Shown here piece after piece: positions 36,814-63,716 of a stretch of DNA of 64,000 nt. The DNA comes from Mycobacterium sp. 155 (lineage in GTDB: Bacteria > Actinomycetota > Actinomycetes > Mycobacteriales > Mycobacteriaceae). Below the pieces are notes generated by a model, which ran no database searches, had not been told where the DNA came from, and saw nothing but the letters and a program-made list of their open reading frames with translations. How positions within the stretch are numbered: position 1 is the first letter of the stretch; each line of letters begins with the position of its first letter. The stretch is taken from assembly GCF_000373905.1 (NCBI RefSeq), contig NZ_KB892705.1, forward strand, positions 2,189,020 to 2,253,019. The letters run 5' to 3'. Made by a program: the position numbers and the translations under genes.

Positions 36814-37060
36814 CACCCACCCTGAGACACCGGCGGCAAATTCGGCGGTCGTCAGATCGTGCGCACGGCTGGTGGCGACACCGCTCTCCATACGGAGAAG
36901 TTCAGCTGCAACGGCGACCTGCTGTGGGGGTTACTCAGGATCCAACCGGTCAGAGTGTCATGGACGCGGGGATTCCCGCCCCCGCCAAACGATCAACGCT
37001 GGGGCGCGCTGCCGGCGCTAATCGCTGCGGCATGCTGGCGCAATCGGTCAGCGATCTGTC

Positions 37061-37540
37061 CTAGCCATTCCTTAGTGCCGCTTCGATATCCGCGACCCGG
37101 TGCGCACTGACACCCCATGGCTCGTGGAGTCCGAGATGAGAGTCCAGATCCCACAGGACGCACCGTTCACCCGGCTCGGCGACCATGGACCAGGCGATGA
37201 CGGTGCGGCGCAGCTGTTCATCCATGCACTCGCCGCCCGCCGCAGCGCCGGGTGGCGCACCGCCCTCGGGATGATGGTGTAGGAACTGGCCGTAGGCGGC
37301 GTCGCAGAATGCCGCATAGCGGACGGTGCACAGGATCAGGCCGTGCCAGGCTTCATCGACTGCACGCGACGGCATTCCGATGATCTGACCGTCGCGCAGC
37401 GCCACCGCGCAGCATCGAAGCCACTGCCGCAGGCCGGTTTCGACGAGTTCACGTGGTTGCCAGGGGCAGGTCTTGAATACCGCCTCCGGCAATTCCAAAT
37501 CGGCGATATGTCGGGCGTCGGCCTTTCTCAGCGTGATCAT
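37061..37540 (-). CDS. Glycine-rich-domain-protein-like (GRDP-like) small protein
   Basis: The 159-residue protein contains VDEAWHGLILCTVRYAAFCD followed by AYGQFLHHHPEGG. This resembles the His-rich GRDP-like motif (VDxxWHxxxL...Y..FC...G.F.HH.P). Three His in LHHHP plus WH could bind metal. It starts at an ATG sharing its A with the stop of the Cys/Gly-tail gene (TGATG), so the two are coupled. The biochemical role is unknown. Family assignment is by motif only. Confidence 0.65.
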   Translation of the reverse strand: MITLRKADARHIADLELPEAVFKTCPWQPRELVETGLRQWLRCCAVALRDGQIIGMPSRAVDEAWHGLILCTVRYAAFCDAAYGQFLHHHPEGGAPPGAAAGGECMDEQLRRTVIAWSMVAEPGERCVLWDLDSHLGLHEPWGVSAHRVADIEAALRNG

Positions 37541-37845
37541 CAGCAACCACCGCCGCCGCAACCACCGCCCCCACCGCAACTGCTTCCGCCGCCGCAGCCG
37601 CTGTGTCCGCCACCGCAACCCGAATGGCCCCCATGGCTTCCGCCACCGCAACCCGCGTGTCCACTATGCCCACCGACGTCGGCTCCGGTAGCCCAGATAG
37701 CTGCTGTCCCGCCGGCACCGGCAACAGACCCGAACCCACTGCGGCGGGCCGCCCCACGCCCACGACGCCGCCGTTTGGCGGTAGCGAAGATCGCGAAGAG
37801 CGCTATGTCGAACGCGATGACCACCACCGGAATCACCCACCACAC
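37540..37845 (-). CDS. Membrane-anchored protein with Gly/Cys/His-rich C-terminal tail
   Basis: The 101-residue protein has one N-terminal membrane helix (about 3-23), a basic stop-transfer segment AKRRRRGRGAARR, and then a tail from residue 58 made almost only of Gly, His, Ser and Cys. Cys are at 66, 77, 84, 90, 96 and 101, with spacing shrinking from 11 to 5; His are at 60, 63, 71, 74 and 81. By charge the tail should face the cytoplasm. The gene is translationally coupled to the GRDP-like gene. It could be a metal-binding or modified tail. I do not recognise a defined family. Confidence 0.65.
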   Translation of the reverse strand: MWWVIPVVVIAFDIALFAIFATAKRRRRGRGAARRSGFGSVAGAGGTAAIWATGADVGGHSGHAGCGGGSHGGHSGCGGGHSGCGGGSSCGGGGGCGGGGC

Positions 37846-38313
37846 GATTTCGTCCTCTCCTGTCGTCCACTTCCTTACCGGACAAGCGGACCACGCACCG
37901 CATGGCTACCGATCCCAACTTGTGCGGACTGTGTGGCGCGTCGCCGTCACCGCGGCCAACAGCTGTAAGGTCCGGCCGCGCACATCTCCTTGGCTTACAG
38001 GCTCTTACCAGCAGTTTTACAGACTAATTCGGGTAGTGGACTACTCAGGTGCGCCAGCGTCGACGTCAATAGGCTCACGACAGCTTGACAGCGACAACGG
38101 GGAGGTGCCCAGTGGTGACGAGACCAGCAACCCTTGCATCCAGCCGCCGACCGCCACGGCTCCTGCCCGCACATGGGGACTGCTTCTTCGACCGCAGCGA
38201 CCAGCTCGCCATCGAACACCCTGAATCTGACTAGGCCAGCCTCAGCCCCGCACCGCAGCACGCGCCACCCGGACACCCGGACACCCTTGACCCAAACATA
38301 GGGGGATCGAAGC
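37846..38313. other. Intergenic region before the giant gene
   Basis: This 468-bp region separates the divergent Cys/Gly-tail gene and the 1453-codon gene. Apart from one 40-codon frame with a good ribosome site (38112-38234) I see no gene, repeat or clear terminator. The stretch near 37990-38100 is less GC-rich and may hold promoters for the plus-strand genes. Confidence 0.5.
38112..38234 (+). CDS. Possible 40-residue small protein or leader peptide
   Basis: A frame starting GTG at 38112 is preceded by GGGGAGGTG, an excellent ribosome site seven bases away. It encodes 40 residues beginning VTRPATLASSRRPPRLLPAH and ending DQLAIEHPESD. It lies 79 bp upstream of the giant gene on the same strand, so it could be a leader or a small partner. 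It has no recognisable domain. Confidence 0.4.
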   Translation: MVTRPATLASSRRPPRLLPAHGDCFFDRSDQLAIEHPESD

Positions 38314-41300
38314 GTGAATCCAGAGCCGCTCTACCTGTTCACCGGCTCGCCAAACCGGTTGGCCATCTTCCTGATTGACTCCAGCACCGGATCCCCGTTG
38401 ACGCTTCGCCCGGTCATGGCCGAGGTGGTCGTCCCCTGCCCGCCTGTGCTGCGGCCAGGCCAGAGGGACTATGAGGATCTTCTCGGCGGAATCTACGAGT
38501 TCGACAACCAGATCAGCCCCGAAGAACACGCTCGCGTCGCCGCGGTGATGAAAGACACCTACGCCCGAGTCCTGACCGACACCGCTCAAGATCAGCTCGC
38601 GGCCGCCGGGAACCGGATGCGGCAATTCAGCCACGAGTCGCTGCAACGTGTCACCGACCAGTCCAGCACACGACTCGGCGCCATGGCCCCCACTGACCTG
38701 CCAAGTGCCCTCGACGCCGCGATGCGCGCGACCGCCGCCGATATGGGACTGCAGACCCGCTCGCCCGACGAGGTGAACACACCCAAATGGTCAAATCCCC
38801 TGGGTGTCTTGACAACCGACCCCGCCGGCTACGTGTCGTTCGATCTCACCCGTCTTCGACCGGACGCACGCGCACTGCTGGACACCGCGATCCAAACACG
38901 CCAATCCGACCCCACCATCGAACCCGGCGCCCGCATCTACATTCAACCGCTCGGCCAACAACCAACCGATGTGCTCACCCAAGCGCGATTCGGCGCCGAC
39001 GCGATCGTCGGGCTGGTCCGCGCGGACGGTGAACAAGTCCCCGTGCGCCAAGGTGGCGGGCAGGCATTGCAGAATCCGTCGCTGACCGACTGGCTGCTCT
39101 CACCCGGATCGTTCGCATCCAACCCCGCAGGCCTGGTCGGTGACGGTGGATGTGAACAGATCTATCCCGCAACGCTAGCCCTGTATGAGTTCGTGGTCCG
39201 TCAGGTGGTCCGCCTTACCGACGGCAACGACGTACAGGTCCCGGATCCCTATAAGCCGGCCTATGTCGACGAGTACCTGGTCACCTGGTCATCGCTGGGG
39301 CATTCCCTCGGCGAAGTGCTCTACAGCCTTCCCCTGGCACCCGGCGAAACGGTGCGCCTGGCCGCCATCGACTGGTCCTGGGACAGTGACACCGCACGCA
39401 CCGAACAGACCACCGAGTCCGAGGACCTCCGGCATGACACCCACCGGGACCGGGTGATCGACGAAACCGTCAAGGCCGCCCTCAAAGAGCATCAGAGCGG
39501 ATCGTCAATCATGGGCGGGATGGCGCACTCGCTCGGGGCCAGCGGCAGCGCGAACTGGGGAATTCTCGGCTTGGGCGCCGCCTCCGGAGACACGAACTCG
39601 ATCGGAGGGGCGACTGCCAGCACCGACGGCAGTCGCGATCTGACCGCCGACAATGTCCAGCGGCTATCGGACAGCTTCGCCCAAGCGAGCACCAGCCAGC
39701 GGCAACTCAATTCGACGGTCGTCATCCAGGCCGAGCAGGCCGAGAAGGAGACGATCCAAACCCGCACCTTCACCAACTACAACCATGCGCACACCTTGAC
39801 GGTGCTCTACCACGAAGTGCTGCGCCATTACCGCGTCACCACCAAATGGATCCGGCGACGCCCAGCGGTGCTCATCCCCCGCCCCACCTACGGATGGGAT
39901 AGCACCACGCTTCGTCAATATCGGCCGGCGCTTGAGGCGGCGCTGCTCGACCCGCTGGCGCAACCCGGCTTCGACGCCCTCGAACAACTCCTGCTCGTCG
40001 AGACCGACGACGCGTACAACCCCGCCCAGGGTCCCGTGCCGATCGTTCAGCAAAAAGACTGGCAATTCGCCGAATTCGAGATCACCACCAACGTCGCAGA
40101 CAACACCAGCGGGGACCCGGTGTGGCTCTACGCCGAACGGCTCGGCCAACCCGACATCCAGATGGTCGAAGGCACCAACCCCAACATCAACTCCAACGGG
40201 CGATTCCAGAATCGACAGACAACAACGTTCACTGTCAGGGCCGACGGCGGGCAGCCCATCCGCTGGGGCGACCTCATCGGGTTCCACCTCTCCCGTCCCC
40301 AAGGGGCTGACCCAAAGTTCCTGTGGGTCTGCATCGTCGGCATCAGCACGGCCGCTCCCGGCGGGCAAATCGAACTGCGCCCACCCAATTCAGGTGAAGT
40401 GCATCTGCTTCAAGCCGACACGAACTACTTCGTCAGCATCACCGCCGCCGGTCCTGACGTCCCCCAGCCGGCCACCGCGCCCACCGGGCGCCGTCGCCTC
40501 ACCATGCAGCAGAACGGCGCCATCGCACGCCTCACCGAACACATCCAGGCCTTCCCCGAGTATTACAGCAGCGTCCGCTACTTCGGCCGCCCCGCCGTGG
40601 ACGTCGCCAAAGAACTCGCAGGCCTCTCGTGGAACGGCACCACCGTGCTCGACCACGTCGAACCCACTCCCTTAGAGATGTTCGGCAGCGATATCGCCTA
40701 CCCCCTCGCCGGCGGCACCACCGCCATGGACTCACTGTCCGTCGACCTCGCCTCAGCACTCGACGGCGCCGACCCGACCCGCCGGCAATGGGCGATCGCC
40801 ACGCTGGCCAGACTCAACGAAGAAGACCAGCAGAACGTCGCTGCTCTGCTGTCACTGGCCTCGTCACGCGCCGAACGCCTCGTCACGCTGCCCACGCGTG
40901 GCGTGTTCGCCGAAGGCCACCTCGGTCATTGCAACGTGGCCGAGGAGATCGACAACACCCGGTTCTGGAAATGGGAGGAGCACCCTCTGCCGATCGAAGC
41001 CCCGGAGATCGCCCCTGTTACCCCGGTCACCCCAGCGCCTCAAAACACCGCAGTGTCGCCCACACCGTTCCCCCAGTCGCTGGTCAACATCGTCAGTCCC
41101 ACCGCGGCACCAGACCCGGTCGGGCTCAGCGCAGCCCTCAAACTCTTGGGCACCCCCAACATTTTCCGCGACATGTCCGGGGAATCCGAACTCACTGATC
41201 TCCTCAAGAAGCTTTCCGACAACACGATTTCGATCGCCGAGGCCGCCAACAAGGCCAGAGAGATTCAGGCGAAACTCGGCAGCGGAGCCGGATCAAGCGG

Positions 41301-42675
41301 GGGTTCCGGCGGCAGCACAACACCCAAAGCCGGACTGGGCGCCAACCGCACCACACCCGCCGACAGGAGCTCCACCACCACTCAGGACCTCCAAGATTTG
41401 CAACACGTCCTCAGCAATGCCCAAGGCAAGAACTTGCTCACCGCCGACGACGCCCGCAACGCGTACACCAATGCCCTGCAAAACGCCTACGCGCCACCGG
41501 TGACCGACGTGTCGTATCCGACTCCTGGCGGCGGCAGCGGCACAGGGGGTACGACGAGCACACCGATCTCGTCAGCCACCGACGCCCAACTCGCCGAAGC
41601 CGCGGCAGTGGTGTTCTTCAACGCAGTCGACATCGACAACTACTTCACCGACGTCACAGGCCAACCATTTGAGCAATGGTTCCGCAACAATCTCGCCGGC
41701 CGCAGCAGCTGGGCCGGCTTCACCCTCGCCAGCGACGCCACCACCCAGGACCGCTTCATCACACTGTGGAACGCTGTCCCCGCCGTTGTCGGCAGTGACC
41801 ACGGAGACGGCACCCCCAGCATCACGCTCCCTGAGCTCGCCACCCTCCTCGCCATCATGCTCCACGAGACGGGGCCGGACCTGAACTTCCGGGGAGCCGA
41901 AGGAATTGGAAATGCAGCTCATCTCGGCCTGGCCTACGCATTCGAGCGCTTCCTGATTACGCCGGCCAATCGGAGCGAACAACCGTTCTGGAAAGCCTCG
42001 TACAACCTGTCGAACGGAAATCGCACTGCCTACGAGTGTTTCCACGATCCGGGCTACCTAAAGGTTTACGGCACATTGCAACCCACATCACAGACTGTGC
42101 GCGACCTCCCCGCATGGTCGGGCAAAGACTGGCCGCAGGGGGTGCCCACAACAAAGACTGGCGTCGAAACAGCGTTCCTGCAGGAGGCCGACTTCTACAA
42201 GTTCCGCGGCCGCGGCACCATCCAATCCACCGGGCGCGGCGCTTACCTTCCGATCGTGCGATACGTCCGCGGCTACAGCGGAGACGACACCAACGTCCTC
42301 GATGTCCAACAGCGTTGGAATGACATAGCAACCGCGGTAGCCGGGCAAGGGACCACCATCACCACCGATGACCAGTTCGCGTTCATATCCTCAAACATGG
42401 ACTGGGACAAGCTCTTCCAGTCAATCCTCATCCAGGTGGTAGCTCTGCGCGGGCACAACAACATTGCGGGCAAACATTACCTACCGATGTCGTCGGACCC
42501 GACAGTCCTCAGAGGGACCGGACGCGGGTCAGCCTCATGGGTCGCACAAGCGATCTCCGGGAGAGACCCCCGCGACGACTCCTATCCTCTCGACGTCCGA
42601 AGCCGAATGCTCGAGTTCATTGGAACGCTCTGGAAGACTCCCATGCCACCCTTAGGGGGCACCGTTAACCTCTAA
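38314..42675 (+). CDS. Giant protein with GH19-like C-terminal domain
   Basis: The 1453-residue product has no signal peptide or membrane helix. Residues 1-890 form a body of unknown family. The most conserved-looking part is FTNYNHAHTLTVLYHEVLRH near 485-505, preceded by a Gly/Ser/Ala-rich loop near 405-435. Pro/Thr and Ser/Gly linkers (near 890-915, 990-1005, 1070-1085) lead to a C-terminal domain resembling GH19 chitinases/endolysins. MLHETG near 1182 carries a likely catalytic Glu-1185 and FRGRGTIQSTGRGAY near 1297 matches the family substrate strand. It may cut peptidoglycan or chitin. Codon use admits more A-ending codons (CAA, GAA, ACA) than neighbours, suggesting transfer. Phage-tail or toxin-like roles are possible. 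Confidence 0.7.
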   Translation: MNPEPLYLFTGSPNRLAIFLIDSSTGSPLTLRPVMAEVVVPCPPVLRPGQRDYEDLLGGIYEFDNQISPEEHARVAAVMKDTYARVLTDTAQDQLAAAGNRMRQFSHESLQRVTDQSSTRLGAMAPTDLPSALDAAMRATAADMGLQTRSPDEVNTPKWSNPLGVLTTDPAGYVSFDLTRLRPDARALLDTAIQTRQSDPTIEPGARIYIQPLGQQPTDVLTQARFGADAIVGLVRADGEQVPVRQGGGQALQNPSLTDWLLSPGSFASNPAGLVGDGGCEQIYPATLALYEFVVRQVVRLTDGNDVQVPDPYKPAYVDEYLVTWSSLGHSLGEVLYSLPLAPGETVRLAAIDWSWDSDTARTEQTTESEDLRHDTHRDRVIDETVKAALKEHQSGSSIMGGMAHSLGASGSANWGILGLGAASGDTNSIGGATASTDGSRDLTADNVQRLSDSFAQASTSQRQLNSTVVIQAEQAEKETIQTRTFTNYNHAHTLTVLYHEVLRHYRVTTKWIRRRPAVLIPRPTYGWDSTTLRQYRPALEAALLDPLAQPGFDALEQLLLVETDDAYNPAQGPVPIVQQKDWQFAEFEITTNVADNTSGDPVWLYAERLGQPDIQMVEGTNPNINSNGRFQNRQTTTFTVRADGGQPIRWGDLIGFHLSRPQGADPKFLWVCIVGISTAAPGGQIELRPPNSGEVHLLQADTNYFVSITAAGPDVPQPATAPTGRRRLTMQQNGAIARLTEHIQAFPEYYSSVRYFGRPAVDVAKELAGLSWNGTTVLDHVEPTPLEMFGSDIAYPLAGGTTAMDSLSVDLASALDGADPTRRQWAIATLARLNEEDQQNVAALLSLASSRAERLVTLPTRGVFAEGHLGHCNVAEEIDNTRFWKWEEHPLPIEAPEIAPVTPVTPAPQNTAVSPTPFPQSLVNIVSPTAAPDPVGLSAALKLLGTPNIFRDMSGESELTDLLKKLSDNTISIAEAANKAREIQAKLGSGAGSSGGSGGSTTPKAGLGANRTTPADRSSTTTQDLQDLQHVLSNAQGKNLLTADDARNAYTNALQNAYAPPVTDVSYPTPGGGSGTGGTTSTPISSATDAQLAEAAAVVFFNAVDIDNYFTDVTGQPFEQWFRNNLAGRSSWAGFTLASDATTQDRFITLWNAVPAVVGSDHGDGTPSITLPELATLLAIMLHETGPDLNFRGAEGIGNAAHLGLAYAFERFLITPANRSEQPFWKASYNLSNGNRTAYECFHDPGYLKVYGTLQPTSQTVRDLPAWSGKDWPQGVPTTKTGVETAFLQEADFYKFRGRGTIQSTGRGAYLPIVRYVRGYSGDDTNVLDVQQRWNDIATAVAGQGTTITTDDQFAFISSNMDWDKLFQSILIQVVALRGHNNIAGKHYLPMSSDPTVLRGTGRGSASWVAQAISGRDPRDDSYPLDVRSRMLEFIGTLWKTPMPPLGGTVNL

Positions 42676-42885
42676 CTGTCCTTCTTCCGCGCGAGCAATT
42701 CCCGCAACGCCTGCAACGCCCGAGACAAGGGCTTCCGGGGTTTCCGTCCAGACAAACAACGGCCAACCCCTTTGCAGGAACACCTGTGCTGCACACCGTT
42801 CCCGTAAAGGCTCAGTTCTCGCCACATCACCTAAGCGGGAGCTCGTCACGGATTTGTCGCTGTTGGAACAACAGCGCATCGCCAC
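42676..42885 (-). pseudogene. Frame-shifted coding remnant
   Basis: On the minus strand one frame reads CAAQVFLQRGWPLFVWTETP, and a second frame then continues protein-like as LSRALQALRELLARKKDS before a stop. Joined by a single frameshift near 42740, these would make the C-terminal end of a normal protein. I do not recognise the family. This suggests a decayed host or element gene at the junction. Confidence 0.4.
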
Positions 42886-42945
42886 GCTGCGCGAGCGCGG
42901 GCAGGTCGACCGAACCAGCCGAGCGGTGTGCCCGATCCATCTTCC

Positions 42946-43107
42946 GTGCGGTCATGGCGCCGAGGCATTCACGCTAACACCAACGGCCTTCTGCGCCAGT
43001 TCTTTCCGAAGGGCAAAGATCTTCGATCTACACACAGCTACGCGCCGTCTTCCGCGCCCAAACCTGCATACGAGCGCAAAGCTGCCAGACCGACACCCTG
43101 GAAAAGA
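42946..43107 (+). pseudogene. Remnant of an IS30-family transposase
   Basis: In one plus frame the sequence reads [20 protein letters not shown] followed by GKDL. It closely resembles the IS30 transposase C-terminal motif ([23 protein letters not shown]) with its catalytic-region Glu/Asn block. Downstream the match continues only by changing frame (IYTQLRAVF). No upstream transposase domain or terminal repeats are visible, so this is a dead fragment of about 50 codons. Confidence 0.6.
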
Positions 43108-43110
43108 AGC

Positions 43111-43136
43111 GGGCCAGGGGATGTTTCCCCTGGCCC
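43111..43136. terminator. Perfect 11-bp hairpin in the junction
   Basis: GGGCCAGGGGA (43111-43121) pairs with TCCCCTGGCCC (43126-43136) around TGTT. It follows the transposase remnant and may be an old terminator. Confidence 0.5.
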
Positions 43137-43473
43137 ACGCCTTAGCTACGAAGCGCTCACAACATGCAGCTGACGCAGACCCAAGTGCGGATGTCTGTGC
43201 AGGTAGATGACTCGCAACCGATGAGACCCACTCCCGCGTGCCCCACCCGTGCCCCACACGCAGCTTCGACACGCCGAAGGCCTGGCGGCCGCCTCGGTAG
43301 AGGGTGTCGCACCAATCCTGCACAATCGAGGCAGGCCGCGAGTCCGTGCGCGGCCGTCGCTCCCCGGAGCGCCACAGGCACGTGCCGAACCCGCTGGATA
43401 GCGCTCGACTCCCGCCACGGACGGGACTGCCGAGGTAAGTCCGGCTCACTGCGCACCTGCAGGAGCCACTCCG

Positions 43474-43710
43474 TTGTCCAAGCTCGATCTCACAGCCCTC
43501 ACCGTTGGCGGCATCGCCCCCTCCTTCGTCAGCGTCGAACACGCTGCACAACTGATGGACGTCAGCCACTGGACCGTCCGTAGGTGGATCACCAACGGGC
43601 ACTTGGCCGCTCGCAAGATGCCGAGCGGTGGCCTTCGCGTCGCGGTCGTCGACCTGGAGAATATCGGTGAGCCGGTGCGGCCCGACAAGCAGAGGAAAGG
43701 CGCGGCGTAA
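43474..43710 (+). CDS. Excisionase-like HTH protein
   Basis: The 78-residue protein contains FVSVEHAAQLMDVSHWTVRR followed by WITNGHLAARKMPSGG, a MerR/excisionase-type winged helix with a short wing. Such proteins bend DNA for phage or integrative-element excision or act as small regulators. A TTG start at 43474 is preceded by GGAG. It is the first intact gene past the IS remnant and ends before a strong hairpin. No integrase is adjacent in this window. Confidence 0.72.
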   Translation: MSKLDLTALTVGGIAPSFVSVEHAAQLMDVSHWTVRRWITNGHLAARKMPSGGLRVAVVDLENIGEPVRPDKQRKGAA

Positions 43711-43737
43711 CCAACGCGTTCGGTCCCTCAACTGCGT

Positions 43738-43770
43738 CAAGCCCGGCAGCCGAATCGGCTGCCGGGCTTG
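43738..43770. terminator. Bidirectional hairpin between convergent genes
   Basis: CAAGCCCGGCAGCCG (43738-43752) pairs perfectly with CGGCTGCCGGGCTTG (43756-43770) around AAT. It lies between the excisionase-like gene and the convergent six-gene operon. Confidence 0.75.
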
Positions 43771-43787
43771 TTCCGTCTCCGGGTCGG

Positions 43788-44102
43788 TCACCCGTGCTGC
43801 CCGCAGAGCGGCGGCCACCCGTCACCGGTTCCCCCGCACACCACGCAAGTGCGGCCGGCCAACTCCTCCGCCTCGTCGATCCTGTCGAACACCTTGTCCG
43901 CTGCGGCCGGCGACAGCGACGACGCCGTGGCCCCCGGATTGATCGAGCCGGGCTCGAAGTCGGCCACGACCAACTCGGGATCCAGCTCACGGACGTCTCG
44001 GATCATCCGTGCGTAGAGCTGCGCCCACCCGGGCCAGGGGCACGCCGGCCATATGTGCGGCCACCGCTCTTCGGTGTCGGTGTCGATGTCAGTGTCGGTC
44101 AC
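43788..44102 (-). CDS. Unknown small protein with C-terminal zinc-ribbon half
   Basis: The 104-residue protein starts at a GTG overlapping the upstream stop (GTGA). It is acidic at the N terminus (TDTDIDTDTEERWPHIW) and ends with RTCVVCGGTGDGWPPLCGQHG-like zinc ligands (Cys-x2-Cys...Cys-x2-His). It contains RMIRDVRELDPELVVADFEP. I do not recognise a family. It is the last gene of a six-gene operon. Confidence 0.6.
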   Translation of the reverse strand: MTDTDIDTDTEERWPHIWPACPWPGWAQLYARMIRDVRELDPELVVADFEPGSINPGATASSLSPAAADKVFDRIDEAEELAGRTCVVCGGTGDGWPPLCGQHG

Positions 44103-44491
44103 GAGCTCTCCTCCGGCTCCGTTCCGGCGGCGGGTTCCGCCCACTCCAGCCCGATCACGCCACCGTCCCGGATCACCACCGCCGAGAGGTCGTGCGACCC
44201 GTCGCAGAACCCGCGCGCATGCAGCCACAGCCCATCTGCGGCCACGTCGTACACCAGCTCATCGCCGAGATCCCATGCCAGCGTCCCGTCGATCACCGCG
44301 GCAGTCGCGAACACCACCGGGTCACGCAGGGAGATGAAGTCGTCGTGGAACTCCTCCGGCTGGAAAATGTGCGTGGCGCAGGTGCCGTCGCGGTGCCGAA
44401 CCCACACCAGACCGTGGCGGATCACCCTGACCTCGACCACCTCGGTGTCGCGCAGGTCCTGGGGCAGGTGCCGATGCACGTTGTCAGTCAC
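44099..44491 (-). CDS. Unknown small protein, DUF2442-like
   Basis: The 130 residues read VHRHLPQDLRDTEVVEVRVI, RHGLVWVRHRDGTCATHIFQ, then VFATAAVIDGTLAWDLGDEL. This pattern resembles the DUF2442 family, in which a strand-rich fold reads a DNA- or protein-like ligand. It overlaps its neighbours by 4 bp on both sides. DUF2442 and DUF4926 genes often sit together in small mobile loci as I recall; function is unknown. Confidence 0.6.
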   Translation of the reverse strand: MTDNVHRHLPQDLRDTEVVEVRVIRHGLVWVRHRDGTCATHIFQPEEFHDDFISLRDPVVFATAAVIDGTLAWDLGDELVYDVAADGLWLHARGFCDGSHDLSAVVIRDGGVIGLEWAEPAAGTEPEESS

Positions 44492-44688
44492 GGCTGGCCC
44501 TTCCGGGACTGGAGGTCGTCCTCGTTGAGGGTCGCCACGGCGACCGTGGTCCCATCCGCATCGAAGACCTCCACCTCGAAATCGCGGCCGCCTGGGTGAA
44601 CGTGGACGATCACGCCGCGGGCGCCCGCGGTCAGGCCCTCCGCTGGGACGTCGGTTGCCAGCGTCACCGGGTCGAGCTCACGGAACAT
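44488..44688 (-). CDS. DUF4926 family protein
   Basis: The 66-residue protein FRELDPVTLATDVPAEGLTA... GVIVHVHPGGRDFEVEVFDA... VAVATLNEDDL fits DUF4926, a small SH3-like barrel with the LxxDxxxxGLxxGxxGxVV pattern. ATG at 44688 is the family start. It lies in the middle of the six-gene operon, directly before the DUF2442-like gene. The function is unknown. Confidence 0.72.
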   Translation of the reverse strand: MFRELDPVTLATDVPAEGLTAGARGVIVHVHPGGRDFEVEVFDADGTTVAVATLNEDDLQSRKGQP

Positions 44689-44695
44689 CCGCTCC

Positions 44696-45238
44696 TCACT
44701 TCCTCTTCTTGCACGCGGCGCACCAGAACTCCGCCCGCCACTCGGTCTCGTTTTCCTGCACGCGTCCGCACCCGCCACAGGTGCTCCGCAGCTCGTTCAG
44801 CGCGGCGAACACGGCGTCTCTGCCCGCGTCCGTCGTGGTTGTGAACACCGCCTGCGGCCCAAGCCGACTCGCCGACACCATCTGCACCCGGGCACCGGGA
44901 TCGACCTCGGCCAGCTCATCCACCAGCTGATCGACACGCTGCTGCCAGCCCGGGCGGTACCGCACGAGCGGACTTGAGGCGTGCCTGCCGCAGAGGGTCT
45001 TGATCCAGCCATTAGGGCGCCGGTGCCGCTCCGCCGGACTGACTCCGCAGACCTCGCATACGGTCGCTGACCGTTCCTCGGCCCGGTCGCAGATCGCCTG
45101 CGCCTGCGGGGTCCACGGGCTCACCTCGGCCCGCATCCAGCCGTACTTCTCGTACGTGGACACGTGGGTGACGCCGATCGCCGCCAACTCGGCGCGGAGG
45201 TCCGCCTCGATCTGGGCCCAGCCCCTGCCGACGCTCAT
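44696..45238 (-). CDS. Unknown protein with two zinc-ribbon motifs
   Basis: The 180-residue protein begins SVGRGWAQIEADLRAELAAIG and carries CEVCGVSPAERHRRPNG... TLCGRH near 62-85 and a C-terminal CGGCGRVQ... WCAACKKRK. The first motif is shared with the next gene upstream, indicating a common small family. ATG at 45238 overlaps the upstream stop (ATGA). Seven bases separate it from the DUF4926 gene. The function is unknown; zinc ribbons of this kind are common in actinophage and mobile-element proteins. Confidence 0.6.
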   Translation of the reverse strand: MSVGRGWAQIEADLRAELAAIGVTHVSTYEKYGWMRAEVSPWTPQAQAICDRAEERSATVCEVCGVSPAERHRRPNGWIKTLCGRHASSPLVRYRPGWQQRVDQLVDELAEVDPGARVQMVSASRLGPQAVFTTTTDAGRDAVFAALNELRSTCGGCGRVQENETEWRAEFWCAACKKRK

Positions 45239-46302
45239 CGCACCCGCTTGATCGCAGCAACCAGACCCGACTCCACCTCGGTGCCATCGGCCAACCGCAC
45301 CCGCCACGCCCGCTGCACACTCGGTAGCGCCAGCACCGTCGCGTCACGGTGGCGGGTGCCGTCGATCGTCACCTCTGCGTGGTTCATGTCCCAGATGCTG
45401 GCGGCGTCGTCTCCGTAGCAGGCGACACTCCACACGCCGCGGTGTTCCGGCGTCAAGTCGTTCACCAGTTCGCCGATCCGCTCGTATCCCTCTGCGGTGG
45501 CGCAGGACGGGCACAGCGTCTTGAGCCACCGGCGTCGGTTGGCGTGCTGACTGCCGGGCTGCCCGCAGAGTTCGCACGTTGCTGAGCACCGGGTTTCGGC
45601 TTCCCGCACCAGTGCGCGCATGCGGTCACGGGCGCCGTCGACCTCAGTGTGGAAGTAGTACCGCAAGCCGGCGAACTTCTCCTTCACCTGCCGCAACTCG
45701 TAGACCGGATCGACCGCCGCGAGGTCAGCGTCGAGCTGGCAGATGATCGGATACCAGCCCTTGTCGCAGCTGATCCACCGTCCCCAGTCCGGCGGGATGC
45801 GCCGCATGATCGCGATGAGGGCCTCGCGGTACTCACCGGCATCATCCGGGACGTGGAGCTTGTCGCGGGTCGCGTCGGGGTCCATGTTGCTCAGCGTTTG
45901 CATCAGCTGACCGAACGCCGCGTGACGCTCGTCAAGGTCGCCGCTGTCCATTGCGGCGCGCAGGTCACCGGACGCCGCGCGGGCGGCACGCTGCTGCGCC
46001 TTCTCGGTGTCGGTCAGCTCCTCGGGTTCGCGGAGCGCCATGAGCCACGCCCGGGTCCGCGCGTAGCCGTTCGCGGCGTCTGCTTCGGCCTCAGCCAGTC
46101 CCCACAGCGTCGGTGCCCACAGCTGCACGGCTTCGTCTTCGGCGCCGGGTTCACCGAGGACCGCGCGGACACCGAGAACCTCGCCGCTGGACCAGACGGA
46201 CTCGTAGTCGGACCAGCCGTCACGGCGGACGAGAGCTGCTCGCTCGCGAAGATCGGAAGCGCGGCGGTGACGGTGCTCGTCGCTGGGTGAATCGATCGGC
46301 AT
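45235..46302 (-). CDS. Unknown 355-residue protein with zinc-ribbon motif
   Basis: The N-terminal two thirds are helical and acidic (LWGLAEAEADAANGYARTRA). A middle segment reads PPDWGRWISCDKGWYPIICQ, and near 252-280 there is CELCGQPGSQHANRRRWLKT followed by LCPSC, matching the motif of the 180-residue neighbour. ATG at 46302 shares its A with the upstream stop (TGATG). The GWYPIICQLD segment and Cys motif recur in actinobacterial hypothetical proteins. No function is assigned. Confidence 0.6.
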   Translation of the reverse strand: MPIDSPSDEHRHRRASDLRERAALVRRDGWSDYESVWSSGEVLGVRAVLGEPGAEDEAVQLWAPTLWGLAEAEADAANGYARTRAWLMALREPEELTDTEKAQQRAARAASGDLRAAMDSGDLDERHAAFGQLMQTLSNMDPDATRDKLHVPDDAGEYREALIAIMRRIPPDWGRWISCDKGWYPIICQLDADLAAVDPVYELRQVKEKFAGLRYYFHTEVDGARDRMRALVREAETRCSATCELCGQPGSQHANRRRWLKTLCPSCATAEGYERIGELVNDLTPEHRGVWSVACYGDDAASIWDMNHAEVTIDGTRHRDATVLALPSVQRAWRVRLADGTEVESGLVAAIKRVR

Positions 46303-51614: not shown

Positions 51615-52207
51615 TGAACAACCTGTACTCGCGCCACTGGGAAAAGGACGGCGCCCACAGCAGCAACGCTCGCATCAACGTGGATCGTGCCGACGAACGT
51701 CTCGGTGTCCCGAGCGGCACCGTTGACGCGCTGCGCCGGCAGGGCCTGATCTGGGATCTATGGGGCACCGACGCCTCCACGATCCCGCTGCGCTCGATCC
51801 GCGAGTTCGAGGCCCGCAGCTGGGGCGACCTGCCAGGTCTGATCCTCGACACCAACAGGCTCTGGGACCGCGACCTCGGACGGGTGCTCCTCCAGGTGCT
51901 GGACACGTCGTCGACCCGCGGCTTCAAGGAGATCGAGAACTATCTGCGCGAGACGGGCGGCGTCGAGCACGCCAACAGCATCGCCCGGGTACGGGCCTAC
52001 CAGGAGATGCGCGACGGAGCCGTACCGATCGACTTGAGGGGACTTCCACCCAGCTACACGAACCTGGTGGGTGGCTTCAAGGGAACCAAGATCCCGGTCC
52101 AGCAGGTAGTCGACTGGATCGACGCGAACTGGGGGCCGATCGTGATCCAGACCCTGGTCAAGACCATCGAGGAGAGCGACAACGCCGACTTCCTCGTCAC
52201 CACCTGA
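51614..52207 (+). CDS. Unknown protein coupled to an excisionase-like gene
   Basis: The 197-residue protein starts NNLYSRHWEKDGAHSSNARI and includes RADERLGVPSGTVDALRRQG, which looks like a helix-turn-helix, followed by SIREFEARSWGDLPGLILDT. A helical rest contains IENYLRETGGVEHANSIARV. It may be a regulator or replication accessory placed before the RepA-like gene. It ends 25 bp before a hairpin. No family is recognised. Confidence 0.55.
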   Translation: MNNLYSRHWEKDGAHSSNARINVDRADERLGVPSGTVDALRRQGLIWDLWGTDASTIPLRSIREFEARSWGDLPGLILDTNRLWDRDLGRVLLQVLDTSSTRGFKEIENYLRETGGVEHANSIARVRAYQEMRDGAVPIDLRGLPPSYTNLVGGFKGTKIPVQQVVDWIDANWGPIVIQTLVKTIEESDNADFLVTT

Positions 52208-57625: not shown

Positions 57626-57658
57626 TTCTCTATTTTAGAGAATAGCTGCTGGTCAGAC
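57626..57658 (+). promoter_or_regulatory. Dyad plus GGTCAGAC module, copy 1
   Basis: TTCTCTATTTTAGAGAA (57626-57642) is a perfect 7-bp dyad. It is followed by TA, six bases and GGTCAGAC (57651-57658). The same arrangement with identical spacing is at 60589-60621. It lies 117 bp before the gene at 57775. Confidence 0.65.
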
Positions 57659-57774: not shown

Positions 57775-58251
57775 TTGACCGTCACCCTCACCACCTTCAC
57801 CATCGACGACGTCTACGACGCCCTCGAAGCCCTCCCCGGCGCACACCCGGACCCGAAGCGGGTCGGCAACGCCGACGTGGCCCTGACCGTCACGGGCGCC
57901 GACCTCTCCATGGTCGAGACCTGGGTCCCGGCCCGTGTCTACTGGCCGCGTCGCGGCAACCCCGCCGCCGTCGCCGTGTCCGCCTACGTGACCTACGCCG
58001 AGGCCGAGGCCGGCGGCTGGATGGCCGCCTACGACTACATCGAGTTCACCGACCACGCCACCGCGGCGGAGGTCGCAGAGACGGTGCAGAAGCGGGCCGA
58101 TGAGCTGGTCACGGAGGTGAACGAGGCGGCGCGGCTCGTGCTCGACGGTCGCCTGGCGGACGCGGCGCGGTTCGCGGAAGAGCACCGGATCAAATGGGAG
58201 CCGGCGGATATGTCTCTCGAGGCCATCTACGAAGAGCTGGACGTCGCCTGA
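57775..58251 (+). CDS. Unknown small protein of the mobile block
   Basis: The 158-residue acidic protein begins TVTLTTFTIDDVYDALEALP and contains GAHPDPKRVGNADVALTVTG, YVTYAEAEAGGWMAAYDYIE and a helical end with RFAEEHRIKWEPADMSLEAI. The TTG start has AGGAGGA five bases upstream, so expression should be strong. It is the first gene of a run of small unknown proteins. No family is recognised. Confidence 0.6.
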   Translation: MTVTLTTFTIDDVYDALEALPGAHPDPKRVGNADVALTVTGADLSMVETWVPARVYWPRRGNPAAVAVSAYVTYAEAEAGGWMAAYDYIEFTDHATAAEVAETVQKRADELVTEVNEAARLVLDGRLADAARFAEEHRIKWEPADMSLEAIYEELDVA

Positions 58252-58262
58252 CCCGCCCGACA

Positions 58263-58306
58263 GCCCCGGTTGGACCGGCAGCGGGGTTCGAATCCCCGCC
58301 GGGGCA
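58263..58306 (+). other. tRNA-like minihelix 1 (T-arm plus acceptor stem)
   Basis: GCCCCGG (58263-58269) pairs perfectly with CCGGGGC (58299-58305), followed by A as a discriminator. Directly inside the 3' strand lies a T-arm: stem CGGGG/CCCCG (58282-58286, 58294-58298) and loop TTCGAAT (58287-58293). Only 12 nt (58270-58281) fill the space of D and anticodon arms. No CCA is encoded. It lies in the 89-bp spacer between two small genes. Confidence 0.65.
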
Positions 58307-58340
58307 CGCAACACATCGCCAACAGGAACGGAGCACGACC

Positions 58341-58739
58341 ATGACCACCACCCTCACCGCCGAGTCCCCCACCGCCGCGCTGAACCCCACCGTCGTGTGG
58401 GAGGCCCTGCTCGACGCGCAGGGCGGGATCGGCGAGGTCCTCCCCGCCGAGCGGGCGCTGGAAATGGTGACCTGTCAGAGCGACGTGTTCGTGTTCGCCG
58501 TGGTGAAGCGCCGGTCGATCCGCGTGACCGCCTCCCGGTTCAGCGCCGATCACGTGACGGCCGAGCGCACGGTCAAGATCCGGCTCAACGAGTTCGATGG
58601 CCGCTACGACATGCGCTCCGAGGCCGGCCGGACCTACGCCGCCGCCGATGCCGCCGAGGCCGCTGTGGACGCAGCGGTGGCGCTGTCGCAGATGCTCATC
58701 CTCTCGGCTCCGAACGCCGACGCCGCTGTGGCGGCGTAG
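58341..58739 (+). CDS. Unknown small protein of the mobile block
   Basis: The 132-residue protein reads NPTVVWEALLDAQGGIGEVL then MVTCQSDVFVFAVVKRRSIR and VTAERTVKIRLNEFDGRYDM. The last part is a beta-rich domain, and an Ala-rich helix (AAADAAEAAVDAAVALSQML) follows. GGAACGGAG lies ten bases before ATG; the same leader occurs before the next two genes. No family is recognised. Confidence 0.6.
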   Translation: MTTTLTAESPTAALNPTVVWEALLDAQGGIGEVLPAERALEMVTCQSDVFVFAVVKRRSIRVTASRFSADHVTAERTVKIRLNEFDGRYDMRSEAGRTYAAADAAEAAVDAAVALSQMLILSAPNADAAVAA

Positions 58740-58754
58740 CCGACCAGTTCGGCA

Positions 58755-58798
58755 GCCCCGAAGGTCACCGAGGGCGGGTTCGACTCCCGCCCGGGGCA
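58755..58798 (+). other. tRNA-like minihelix 2 (T-arm plus acceptor stem)
   Basis: GCCCCGA (58755-58761) pairs with CCGGGGC (58791-58797) over six of seven positions, followed by A. The T-arm has stem GCGGG/CCCGC (58774-58778, 58786-58790) and loop TTCGACT (58779-58785). The insert is again 12 nt (58762-58773), total 44 nt, as in copy 1. T-stem sequence differs but pairing is kept. Confidence 0.65.
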
Positions 58799-58865
58799 CT
58801 GCGCCCGTAGCAATCCGGCTACAGGGTCAACAGCGGGCTTCGGCCCGGGAACGGAGAACGACACC

Positions 58866-59177
58866 ATGACCATCACCGCCGAGGCCCCCGCCCAGTCGCA
58901 CACCTGCCCGGACTGCCTGCACACCGCGCGCATCACCGCGGTGTCCGCCGGCCTGGACCCCGACCGGCTGGCTGCTCGGGTCCGCGCCGAGCTGTGTCGC
59001 TGGGCGGCCGACGACATCGACGCCGAGGTGATCCGCTTCGGCCCTGACCACGAGCTGATGGTCGACGTCGTCGGCCACGAGGTGTGGGAGGGCGAGTGGA
59101 ACCGCTCCGCGGATCAGCAGCTGCGCTTGGCCCTCGTCCACATCGCCGCCGCACTGGCCGCCGGCGCGAAGCTCTGA
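58866..59177 (+). CDS. Unknown small protein with CPDC motif
   Basis: The 103-residue protein starts TITAEAPAQSHTCPDCLHTA, with Cys-Pro-Asp-Cys near 14-17 as a possible zinc or redox pair, and continues RWAADDIDAEVIRFGPDHEL, WNRSADQQLRLALVHIAAAL. GGAACGGAGAACGACACC precedes ATG. It follows minihelix 2. No family is recognised. Confidence 0.6.
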   Translation: MTITAEAPAQSHTCPDCLHTARITAVSAGLDPDRLAARVRAELCRWAADDIDAEVIRFGPDHELMVDVVGHEVWEGEWNRSADQQLRLALVHIAAALAAGAKL

Positions 59178-59200: not shown

Positions 59201-59446
59201 GTGAACACCACCGAGCCCCTCACCCTCCGCGGCGCGATCCTCGCCGAGATCGGCCCCCTCACCGGCGCGGAGGACTACGACATCGACGCCATCGAGGCCG
59301 AGCTGCGGCGCCTCGGCGTCACCGCCGAGCAGCTGCGCCTCCTCGACGCCGACGTGGACGGCCAGCTCGCGATCGACGCCGAGAACCTCAACGTGCTGCT
59401 CTGGCTCATCGCCGTGGAGCACGAGCGCCTCGCGCCCGTCGCCTGA
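59201..59446 (+). CDS. Unknown 81-residue acidic protein
   Basis: The protein reads TTEPLTLRGAILAEIGPLTG, EDYDIDAIEAELRRLGVTAE, then LLDADVDGQLAIDAENLNVL. It is acidic and helical with no recognisable domain. GTG start at 59201 is preceded by CGAACGGAG, the shared leader. It lies 23 bp after the CPDC gene. Confidence 0.55.
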   Translation: MNTTEPLTLRGAILAEIGPLTGAEDYDIDAIEAELRRLGVTAEQLRLLDADVDGQLAIDAENLNVLLWLIAVEHERLAPVA

Positions 59447-60371: not shown

Positions 60372-60405
60372 AAGCAGCCCGTCACCGTTCGGTGGCGGGC
60401 TGCTT
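60372..60405. terminator. Hairpin after the three-gene unit
   Basis: AAGCAGCCCGTCACCG (60372-60387) pairs with CGGTGGCGGGCTGCTT (60390-60405) with one G-T pair. It lies 16 bp past the last stop. Confidence 0.7.
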
Positions 60406-60588: not shown

Positions 60589-60621
60589 TTCTCTAAAGCA
60601 GAGAATATACGCAGGTCAGAC
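60589..60621 (+). promoter_or_regulatory. Dyad plus GGTCAGAC module, copy 2
   Basis: TTCTCTAAAGCAGAGAA (60589-60605) is an imperfect 7-bp dyad, followed by TA, six bases and GGTCAGAC (60614-60621). It has the same element order and spacing as copy 1. It lies 76 bp before the ATG at 60697. Confidence 0.65.
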
Positions 60622-61802: not shown

Positions 61803-62466
61803 CGGCGACGTGAACAGGCGTGAGGGGTGGTGCCGCCGATGCCGGGGCATCATCCCTGCCGGGGCGGGCGTGTTCCACAAGCGGGCGCTGGTGCACGCCG
61901 AGGCGTGCCCGGAGCCGGAGGAGATCGTGCGGCCCAACCGGTACGCCGGCGCCTGCGACCTCTGCAACGGCTGGGTCGCCGAGGGCGAGGGCGTCGCGGT
62001 GCGGCAGGACACCTCGACCGTGACGGGCGCCCGGTACGCGGCCCGCCACGACGGCTACTGCCCGGCGAACGCGAAACCGGCGCCGGTCGAGGGCGGCTTC
62101 ACCGCGCAGTGGACCGCCGCCAGCGTCGGCACCAAGATCGAACCCAACACCGTACACAAGGGCTGGGATCCGCACCCGTGGGTGCGCGAGCTCACCAAAG
62201 GCGTGCACGGCGAGCAGCGGTACCGGTGGATCCGCGGCCGGCGCGACTACTCCGGCGTGTCGCCGGACGGCAGCGCGGGCATCACCACCAGCTTCACCCT
62301 GCGCCACGGCCACATCTATGAGGCTGAGTGTGTGGTGCGGACCCCCGGGCGCGGGCAGATCCACAACGCCCGCCGCCGCATGTTCTTGCAGGTGACGGCC
62401 GACGGTGACGTGAAGATGCTGGCCGAGGGCTCCGAGGAGGTGCAGACGTGGCTGGCCGCGGGCTGA
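61795..62466 (+). CDS. Unknown Cys-rich protein
   Basis: The 223-residue protein has two N-terminal Cys motifs: WCRRCRGIIPAGAGVFHKRA and CDLCNGWVAEGEGVAVRQ, each followed by HxxxC/H-type ligands (HAEACPE, RHDGYCP). These look like tandem zinc-binding modules. The C-terminal part reads GHIYEAECVVRTPGRGQIHN. It overlaps the DUF3440 gene by 19 bp. The function is unknown. Confidence 0.58.
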   Translation: MRDGDVNRREGWCRRCRGIIPAGAGVFHKRALVHAEACPEPEEIVRPNRYAGACDLCNGWVAEGEGVAVRQDTSTVTGARYAARHDGYCPANAKPAPVEGGFTAQWTAASVGTKIEPNTVHKGWDPHPWVRELTKGVHGEQRYRWIRGRRDYSGVSPDGSAGITTSFTLRHGHIYEAECVVRTPGRGQIHNARRRMFLQVTADGDVKMLAEGSEEVQTWLAAG

Positions 62467-63716
62467 GCGCGAACAAGCGCGGTCTCGGGATCGACGTCCT
62501 CACCGCCGCGCAGCAGCGCCTGGCCCGCACCTTCGACGACTTCCCGGTGGTCTACTGCTCGTTTTCGGGCGGCAAGGACTCGGGTGTGATGCTCGAACTC
62601 GCCGCCCGGGAGGCCCGGTCCCGGGGCCGCAAGCTCGGGGTGCTGATCGTCGATCTCGAGGGCCAGTACCAGCACACCATCGACTTCATCTCTGCCATGT
62701 TGACCCGCCACGCCGACGTCGTCGAGCCGTTCTGGGTGGCGCTGCCGCTGAACCTGCGCAACGCCGTGAGCCAGTTCCAGCCGCACTGGCAGTGCTGGGA
62801 CCCGACCAAGAAGGCGCAGTGGATCCGGCCGCTCCCGCCCGGTCCCGGCCTGGTGTCCGATCCGAAGTTCTTCCCGTTCTTCACCCGCGGCATGGAGTTC
62901 GAGGAGTTCGTGCCGCGCTTCGGCGAGTGGTACTCGCAGCGGCATGGCGGCAAGCTCACCGCGTGCCTGGTCGGCATCCGCGCCGACGAGTCCCTCAACC
63001 GGTACCGCACCGTCGCGAGCTGGCGCAAACGCACCCACGAGGGCCTGCAGTGGACCACCTGGATCGGCGACGGCCTGGTGAACGTGTACCCGATCTACGA
63101 CTGGCGCACCGAGGACATCTGGCGCTTCAACGGCCGCGAGAAGGTTCCGTACAACCGCGTGTACGACCTCATGCACCAGGCCGGAGTCAGCATCCACCAG
63201 GCGCGCCTGTGCCAGCCGTACGGTGACGATCAACGAAAGGGCCTGTGGCTCTTCCACATCATCGAACCGGACACCTGGTCGCGGGTCGTGTCGCGGGTCC
63301 AGGGCGCAAACTTCGGCGCGATCTACGCCACTCACACCGGCAACATCCTGGGGCGCGTGAAGATCGAGAAGCCGCCCAGCTGCGACACCTGGCAGCAGTA
63401 CGCCACCGCGCTGCTCGCCTCGATGCCGCCACCGACAGCGGACCACTTCCGGGACAAGATCGCGAAGTTCCTGCACTGGTACGAGACCCGTGGGTACCCG
63501 GGCGGGATCATCCCGGACGACGGCCCGTTGACGAAGGACTCGCCCAGCTGGAAACGCATCTGCAAGTCGCTGCTGTCCTACGACTACTGGTGCAAGGGCC
63601 TGTCGTTCAGCGTCCCGGTGAACACCCGCAGCTACACCAGCTACAAGAACTACATGCAGCTCAAGCGAAGGGAGTGGGGCTATGACGACCTCACCAGAAC
63701 TGCTCACCTTGACTAA
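62448..63716 (+). CDS. DUF3440 PAPS-reductase-like (IbrA-type) protein
   Basis: The 422-residue protein has the N-type ATP pyrophosphatase loop CSFSGGKDSGVMLELAAREA (residues 37-56) and the DUF3440 landmarks VDLEGQYQHTIDFI, WIGDGLVNVYPIYDWRTEDI and HQARLCQPYGDDQRKGL. IbrA of E. coli belongs here and is paired with a ParB-like IbrB. These proteins adenylate a substrate and probably move sulfur or activate a nucleic acid; the actual reaction is unknown. It is followed by an overlapping GNAT-like gene. Confidence 0.85.
   Translation: MAGRGLSANKRGLGIDVLTAAQQRLARTFDDFPVVYCSFSGGKDSGVMLELAAREARSRGRKLGVLIVDLEGQYQHTIDFISAMLTRHADVVEPFWVALPLNLRNAVSQFQPHWQCWDPTKKAQWIRPLPPGPGLVSDPKFFPFFTRGMEFEEFVPRFGEWYSQRHGGKLTACLVGIRADESLNRYRTVASWRKRTHEGLQWTTWIGDGLVNVYPIYDWRTEDIWRFNGREKVPYNRVYDLMHQAGVSIHQARLCQPYGDDQRKGLWLFHIIEPDTWSRVVSRVQGANFGAIYATHTGNILGRVKIEKPPSCDTWQQYATALLASMPPPTADHFRDKIAKFLHWYETRGYPGGIIPDDGPLTKDSPSWKRICKSLLSYDYWCKGLSFSVPVNTRSYTSYKNYMQLKRREWGYDDLTRTAHLD

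Follow-up and report, generated by a model that had tools for sequence, protein, structure and literature searches.

Polycistronic transcripts of organelles are punctuated by real transfer RNAs (tRNAs), which are needed there anyway, and RNase Z type enzymes cut precursors without CCA after the discriminator nucleotide N73. Parts of the tRNA shape recur elsewhere: the tRNA-like domain of transfer-messenger RNA (tmRNA) combines an acceptor and a T-arm with a reduced D-arm, the Y RNA-like YrlA (RF02553) is a tRNA-mimicking RNA of phages and bacteria, and the RNase P model substrates AT1 and pMini3bpUG end in CCA. RNase P reportedly cleaves bacterial operon messenger RNAs (mRNAs), as the title of the 2003 paper by Li and Altman has it, and the precursor of the C4 antisense RNA of phages P1 and P7 is said, again by title, to be a phage RNA that serves as an RNase P substrate. 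Punctuation by tRNAs and the action of RNase P on mRNA of operons are both known kinds. According to excerpts of one study, RNase P reads the T-loop and T-stem and measures 12 base pairs (bp) to the 5' cut, and hairpins of acceptor, T-stem and T-loop are its model substrates (PubMed Central PMC11143913); excerpts of another describe pairing of the enzyme with RCC, and an effect of RCC pairing and of the N-1 residue on cleavage and site choice (PMC12710915). Here we describe two tRNA-like minihelices (minis) in a stretch of 64,000 nucleotides (nt) from Mycobacterium sp. 155 (contig NZ_KB892705.1, positions 2,189,020 to 2,253,019; the window), together with their relatives in phages.

We conclude that the minis are probably minimal substrates of RNase P and RNase Z that punctuate polycistronic mRNA. 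This reading builds on five observed properties of the family: its structure, its covariation, its intergenic position on the sense strand, its spacing from the neighbouring genes, and its pre-tRNA-like flanks.

Structure and covariation of the minis

The first-pass annotation had placed two 44-nt minihelices in the window, and both their sequence and their coordinates proved exact; each comprises an acceptor strand, a 12-nt spacer bearing GG, a T-arm and a discriminator A.

58263..58306, plus strand: mini-tRNA-like copy 1; 7-bp acceptor, 5-bp T-stem, TTCGAAT loop; 58.1 bits with our model R2 (copy is a member of the model)
58755..58798, plus strand: mini-tRNA-like copy 2; 6-bp acceptor and 6-bp T-stem, TTCGACT loop; 59.4 bits with R2 (likewise a member)

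Copy 1 reads GCCCCGG, TTGGACCGGCAG, CGGGG-TTCGAAT-CCCCG, CCGGGGC and A, and shows the 7-bp acceptor and 5-bp T-stem originally ascribed to both copies. Copy 2 (GCCCCGA, AGGTCACCGAGG, GCGGG-TTCGACT-CCCGC, CCGGGGC, A) departs from that architecture: its acceptor pair 7 is an A-C mismatch (A7-C66), and a sixth T-stem pair, G-C, forms in its place. Copy 2 is best read as 6+6 bp, with the same total of 12 bp as copy 1. The equal 12-nt spacer claimed at the outset holds for the window pair and not for the family, in which the spacer as parsed measures 9–16 nt in 43 of 45 copies.

A degenerate pattern derived from both copies matched only these two in the 64 kb and nothing in 100 shuffles; a strict structural descriptor also found only copies 1 and 2 in the window, and a relaxed one added a poor third match at 51783-51825. 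The T-loop part GGTTCGANTCCC, with one mismatch allowed, matched twice versus 1.93 times expected and is not unusual alone. As the folds of the single copies beat shuffles only moderately (z -1.5 and -2.1), the weight of the case rests on the relatives. ARAGORN reported no tRNA or tmRNA in the window, and Rfam gave no match there at its gathering threshold, RF00005 and YrlA included; with RF00005 (tRNA), copy 2 reaches 15.2 bits in its own genome against a cut-off of 29. A full tRNA or tmRNA was rejected on these results.

A seed pattern that fixes only GCCCC, GGTTCGA..CC and GGGGC and leaves the spacer length free matched at least 120 stretches of viral contigs; once 13 matches overlapping ARAGORN tRNAs had been dropped, 103 distinct sequences with 53 distinct T-arms were left. 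All three of the free outer T-stem pairs are Watson-Crick in 25 of the 53 T-arms (shuffled mean 1.4, maximum 7, 2000 shuffles), and in 15 of 28 when spacers are limited to 12 nt or less (shuffled mean 0.9). The T-stem pairs left free by the seed pattern thus covary. The first-pass remark that the T-stems of the window copies differ while still pairing extends in this way to the family, and the further copies with compensatory changes that it had named as its own test are present in viral contigs and phages. These free pairs provide a fairer test of covariation than pair counts on the alignment A4, which was fitted by covariance model, was used for the models, and biases such counts to the model; its 138 matches come from the window, the phages SWU2 and VanLee, and 87 of the 120 viral loci, 90 sources in all.

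A descriptor with the loop TTCGA gave 105 hits in 1.14 Mb of sequence from the 120 viral loci, whereas 59 permuted loops averaged 0.53; the choice of loci by the GCCCC/GGGGC seed pattern inflates the figure of 105. The T-loop formed part of the search, and support for a canonical loop comes from this permuted-loop comparison within seeded loci. Other acceptors yielded 25 hits in 13 viral loci, with TTCGA or TTCAA loops, before any filtering for tRNAs. A chance origin was rejected on the shuffles of the pattern, the permuted loops and the T-stem covariation.

The helix stack was assessed in 45 copies, 43 from phages and two from the window. With G-U allowed, it is fully paired over 12 bp in 33 and over 11 bp in seven, and carries one or two mismatches in five; 38 copies have 12 nt between loop and discriminator, and seven have 11 nt. 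The spacer contains GG in 44 of the 45, compared with a shuffled mean of 33.0 and maximum of 40. An 11-bp subfamily (5+6) with GGCAGAC- or GGCACAC-like spacers occurs in the phages Endor1 (five copies) and Cafasso (two; L301:32262 and 32648), and was seen by eye in Sitrop and Oaker too (loci L300, L301, L359 and L346 in all).

Position in phage operons and occurrence

Searched with a 45-nt viral copy, 89 phage records gave matches, mostly those of Mycobacterium, Gordonia and Streptomyces phages; among the matches listed (60 of the 89), most sites are unannotated and a few are tRNA genes. Positions were analysed at the loci of seven phages picked for having a match, together with D29 as a well-known unselected phage, in the fetched parts of their genomes, mostly right arms. 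Matches in viral contigs were left out of this analysis because some resemble pieces of tRNAs or ends like those of attachment (att) sites.

R2 found 44 matches on the eight phage loci (E up to 1), one of which is an annotated tRNA-Lys. Forty-two of the 43 non-tRNA matches are intergenic, overlapping annotated genes by 12 nt at most, versus 7.4% of positions expected; the single exception overlaps an annotated gene start by 30 nt. R2 had been trained on the SWU2 copy and on 16 of VanLee's 17, so that detection in these two phages is no test; their positions remain informative as a test, because R2 contains no gene information. With VanLee and SWU2 left out, 24 of 25 matches are intergenic. At further phage loci selected by BLAST, the figure is 18 of 20, the two exceptions being Journey13, where the match lies within overlapping annotated genes, and a haloarchaeal virus, with an overlap of 13 nt.

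The 42 intergenic minis agree in strand with the next gene in every case and with the previous gene in 41. They start 5–13 nt past the stop codon in 26 of 42, and end 28–51 nt ahead of the next start in 33, with two groups at 28–40 nt (15 minis) and 44–51 nt (18 minis); for a range of 12–51 nt the count is 34. The flanking genes are most simply taken to be co-transcribed, because leaders of 12–51 nt would leave little room for a promoter as well as a ribosome-binding site. Among same-strand gaps of at least 65 nt within the fetched part of each phage, a mini is present in 17 of 18 leftward and 0 of 6 rightward gaps of the Gordonia phage VanLee, in 8 of 9 and 2 of 6 in Cafasso (where the strand of the mini follows the operon), in 5 of 9 and 0 of 7 in Endor1, and in 2 of 6 and 0 of 6 in Octobien14. 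This placement in sense-strand gaps of small-gene operons, together with flanks like those of host pre-tRNA genes, supports the processing-signal reading proposed in the first-pass annotation.

Several other features were recorded at these loci. A hairpin of at least 5 bp lies within 36 nt 3' of the mini in 17 of 45 copies (a raw count), and a second small hairpin was seen in many leaders downstream of minis (VanLee L146, Cafasso L301). A box like CACCCAAC stands ahead of the ribosome-binding site in 14 VanLee and six Cafasso leaders. ARAGORN called a tRNA-Val, probably falsely, across a mini and its flank in VanLee (L146:44227-44317). At a gene boundary of the haloarchaeal virus HRPV-1 lies a weak hairpin that resembles a mini and has a loop like that of a D-arm (L356:1484-1528; R2 20.9 bits); it slightly overlaps the upstream gene.

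Members of the family turn up repeatedly in actinobacteriophages and viral contigs but seldom in the sampled chromosomes. Over 118 genomes of the genus, R2 found clear copies in the genome of Mycobacterium sp. 155 only, other matches reaching at most 37.1 bits; in the own genome the match at that level falls within a tRNA-Arg gene, and we take most of the other matches of this score in the genus to be, probably, tRNA-Arg stretches too. The covariance-model search suggested earlier for actinobacterial and phage genomes recovered copies in phages, and class-wide a match at E up to 5e-4 in five of 394 genomes, the own genome included, under stricter filters that miss weak copies. In a pattern search of genome contigs, 80 of the 118 stretches were scanned and gave 63 descriptor hits; 39 overlapped ARAGORN tRNAs and were dropped, and the 24 kept include Streptomyces, Nonomuraea, Brachybacterium and metagenome-assembled genomes (MAGs) of Phycisphaerae and Chloroflexota, several of them looking like tRNA 3' ends. 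In a Chloroflexota MAG contig, some 2 kb of sequence contains four mini-like matches, all on the same strand (L256:1113-3202). Weak candidates in a haloarchaeal virus and in one phage each of Bacteroides and Salisaeta suggest a wider range beyond actinobacteriophages.

Proposed processing and competing explanations

The flanks of the 45 copies are uniform on the 3' side: all have a purine at 73 and C74, followed by G, T or rarely A, and none has C75 or CCA. On the 5' side, position -1 is A in 33 and the context is YA/G in 31. The 67 distinct viral-contig copies have looser flanks (purine 73 in 55, C74 in 54, C75 in eight). The own genome has 46 tRNA genes, of which 38 were read and 37 could be scored (L302-L339): C74 is encoded in all 37, CCA in nine, and A at -1 is found in 10. 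CCA is rarer in the minis (Fisher p 4e-4) and A at -1 commoner (p 5e-5), both p values being optimistic in that related copies are counted as independent and phage copies are compared with the tRNA genes of one genome. The minis resemble the CCA-less majority of the own-genome tRNA genes, and they carry the T-loop, T-stem and stacked helix described for RNase P substrates; of the RCC motif they have R73 and C74 but not C75, which most tRNA genes of the own genome lack as well.

We propose that each mini would act as a dedicated minimal precursor-tRNA mimic within a polycistronic mRNA. The 12-bp stack (11 bp in one subfamily), the TTCRANN T-loop and the D-loop-like GG would offer RNase P the portion of a tRNA which it recognises, with no anticodon arm; host RNase P would cut 5' of G+1 in the context YA/G; and an RNase Z type 3' endonuclease would cut after the purine discriminator, an event expected because the minis, like most host tRNA genes, encode C74 without CCA. 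The upstream mRNA would then end 5–13 nt past its stop, the downstream mRNA would receive a short leader with a ribosome-binding site, and gene blocks would be separated such that stability and yield could be set for each block. The cuts predicted for the window, whose effect on expression is likewise a prediction, are as follows.

58262..58263, plus strand: predicted RNase P cut at copy 1, between A-1 and G+1, context YA/G
58306..58307, plus strand: predicted RNase Z cut at copy 1, after discriminator A73, with C74 encoded and no CCA
58754..58755, plus strand: predicted RNase P cut at copy 2, between A-1 and G+1
58798..58799, plus strand: predicted RNase Z cut at copy 2, after discriminator A73, with C74 encoded and no CCA

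Several observations weigh against the proposal that the minis are processing substrates. The 11-bp subfamily deviates from the 12-bp ruler of RNase P; the minis encode R73-C74 only, whereas the enzyme is described as pairing with RCC; and pairing between -1 and 73 occurs in one of 45 copies, close to the shuffled mean of 2.76, so that this feature is weak. A third mini of the same element, described below, has one T-stem mismatch when read as 6+6 bp, and its minimum-free-energy fold is non-canonical. Coverage of gaps is uneven, with minis in 2 of 13 leftward gaps (and 0 of 4 rightward) in Dagobah, 2 of 8 leftward in MakoManhole and 1 of 7 leftward in SWU2, and the R2 scan of the D29 locus found none; the device must therefore be dispensable. 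Finally, all phage loci but that of D29 were selected for holding a match.

The minis might instead stay in the mRNA as tRNA-shaped stabilisers or insulators of the 3' untranslated region, which block 3' exonucleases or shape ribosome exit without any cut. Their GC-rich, stable hairpins and the start of 26 of 42 just past a stop codon would suit such a role; a roadblock hairpin, however, needs neither TTCRANN nor the D-loop-like GG, nor R73-C74, nor avoidance of CCA, and we consider this explanation unlikely.

Alternatively, excised minis could be released as trans-acting decoys that titrate away either an antiviral nuclease aimed at tRNAs or an enzyme that binds them. The 17 copies in the fetched part of VanLee and the retained features of the tRNA elbow are compatible with this idea, and an immune nuclease that cuts tRNA tails is known, as excerpts of another article describe (PMC12851939). 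However, a decoy needs no gap-by-gap placement at similar distances from stop and start, and so explains the spacing less well, and the minis do not encode CCA; as a replacement for processing we regard it as quite improbable. It could, however, accompany processing.

Intrinsic terminators or attenuators are a very improbable explanation. A GC-rich hairpin soon past a stop codon is what a terminator would look like, but a terminator requires neither a T-loop nor GG, and one in nearly every gap would be expected to silence the rest of the run, with the next start 12–51 nt away in 34 of 42 cases. This candidate was rejected on the flanks, which read by eye show no T-run after the window copies, C74 being followed by G, T or rarely A; CTTTT follows one of the 45 copies (L296:20451). 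Att-site remnants that integration left in the 3' ends of tRNAs, the alternative named in the first-pass annotation, are the least credible explanation and were rejected: integrated elements often leave tRNA fragments, as stated in excerpts of PMC9897764, and some Streptomyces loci look by eye like tRNA 3' ends, but the own genome has no tRNA with GGTTCGANTCCCNNCNGGGGCA, a pattern that matches the two window copies only, the 5' acceptor strand is present too, the T-stems differ yet covary, a single phage operon can hold many sense-oriented copies, and VanLee has 17 copies.

Gene run, wider meaning and comparison with known systems

Both copies sit in a run of small plus-strand open reading frames (ORFs), mostly without a recognised family, that includes a glutaredoxin-like gene. 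Ordinary-looking chromosomal genes stop at about 57.2 kb of the window; an HTH_17 gene precedes the run, and a PAPS-reductase-like gene and a ParB-like gene lie behind it. Copy 1 starts 11 nt past a stop and ends 34 nt ahead of an ATG, and copy 2 starts 15 nt past a stop and ends 67 nt ahead of an ATG.

57626..57642, no strand: inverted repeat TTCTCTATTTTAGAGAA ahead of the gene run; putatively operator- or promoter-like
57775..58251, plus strand: ORF upstream of copy 1, 158 aa, TTG start; no Pfam match above cut-off, no PHROG
58341..58739, plus strand: ORF between the copies, 132 aa, ATG start; no family found
58866..59177, plus strand: ORF after copy 2, 103 aa, ATG start; no Pfam match above cut-off, no PHROG
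59201..59446, plus strand: small ORF of the same run, 81 aa
59549..59830, plus strand: glutaredoxin-like gene of the same run (PF00462, E 2.2e-10)
60373..60404, plus strand: GC-rich hairpin past the final ORF of the run, read by eye; possible transcript end
60589..60605, no strand: the inverted repeat a second time, as TTCTCTAAAGCAGAGAA, in front of the following gene run; putative function as above
L340 about 1249-1266, no strand: third inverted repeat, ahead of the third gene run, beyond the window
L340:1691-1749 (G000:C1:2254710-2254768), between stop and ATG: third, weaker mini, 31.7 bits

The repeat has the form TTCTCTA..TAGAGAA or TCTCTAAA..AGAGA, common to three promoter-like regions of the element, and is likely a shared operator of the three gene runs. 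The third mini lies about 6.9 kb beyond copy 2, outside the window, in the third gene run; its spacer holds an additional hairpin, and its flanks match those of the others, with 'ggta' on the 5' side and ACG starting at the discriminator. With 2.7 kb surrounding the copies as query, BLAST gave no match in phages or plasmids; with longer queries the sole matches were to the PAPS-reductase-like gene and, at the far end, to an ArsR/ArsI region (in plasmids of Mycobacterium and Rhodococcus). A DNA search with 631 bases around the copies returned apparent GC-rich background in 100 genomes and one match in the own genome, which overlaps the third mini. A PAPS-reductase-like gene with a ParB-like neighbour occurs in the element at window positions 62448-63716 and at L340:101-742; PAPS-reductase-like genes also lie near the mini-bearing operons of VanLee (L146:46801-47502) and Cafasso (L301:35417-36127).

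In open-licence articles of PubMed Central, without preprints, we found no report of a dedicated, repeated mini-tRNA mark in phages. At the VanLee locus, no Rfam match up to E 1 lies on the sense strand of a mini; RF04354 matches weakly (24.7 bits against a cut-off of 65.7) on the strand opposite one mini. The announcement of CaiB, a DR-cluster Gordonia phage, describes repeated intergenic regions as short motifs just upstream of genes and says nothing of a tRNA-like shape. On balance, we favour the view that the minis form a previously unnamed class of viral cis-acting RNA: purpose-made mini-tRNAs, minimal natural targets of RNase P and RNase Z, that punctuate small-gene operons of actinobacteriophages and related mobile elements. 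Once released, these RNAs of about 42–44 nt may also act in trans. If this is true, phages make the host tRNA-processing machinery a general mRNA cutter by means of a mark of about 42–44 nt, which would tie phage gene expression to tRNA-processing enzymes and would explain the unannotated gaps of about 80–120 nt in the operons of phages such as VanLee and Cafasso. The minis would also serve as minimal substrates of natural origin for both RNases, and as a compact signal by which polycistronic RNA can be cut.

Compared with described systems, the minis share an acceptor and a T-arm with the tRNA-like domain of tmRNA, whereas ARAGORN finds no tmRNA in the window. YrlA matches of 47 and 33 bits, below the gathering threshold of 69, were found in VanLee near a tRNA-Arg, just before a Ro-like gene (L146:29330-29558), but lie away from the 16 minis at 36171-45453. 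The C4 RNA of P1 and P7 is an antisense RNA precursor, unlike the minis, which are repeated along an operon. The system of Li and Altman is alike, by title only, in that RNase P acts on polycistronic operon mRNA; the minis differ in being one defined tRNA-shaped element, present up to 17 times per phage. Organelle punctuation likewise places a tRNA-shaped RNA between genes, where it is cut at both ends as is predicted for the minis, but employs real tRNAs, whereas the minis have no anticodon arm. AT1 and pMini3bpUG, model substrates of RNase P in the excerpts of PMC11143913, are laboratory-made, whereas the minis are natural, retain the D-loop-like GG and lack an encoded CCA.
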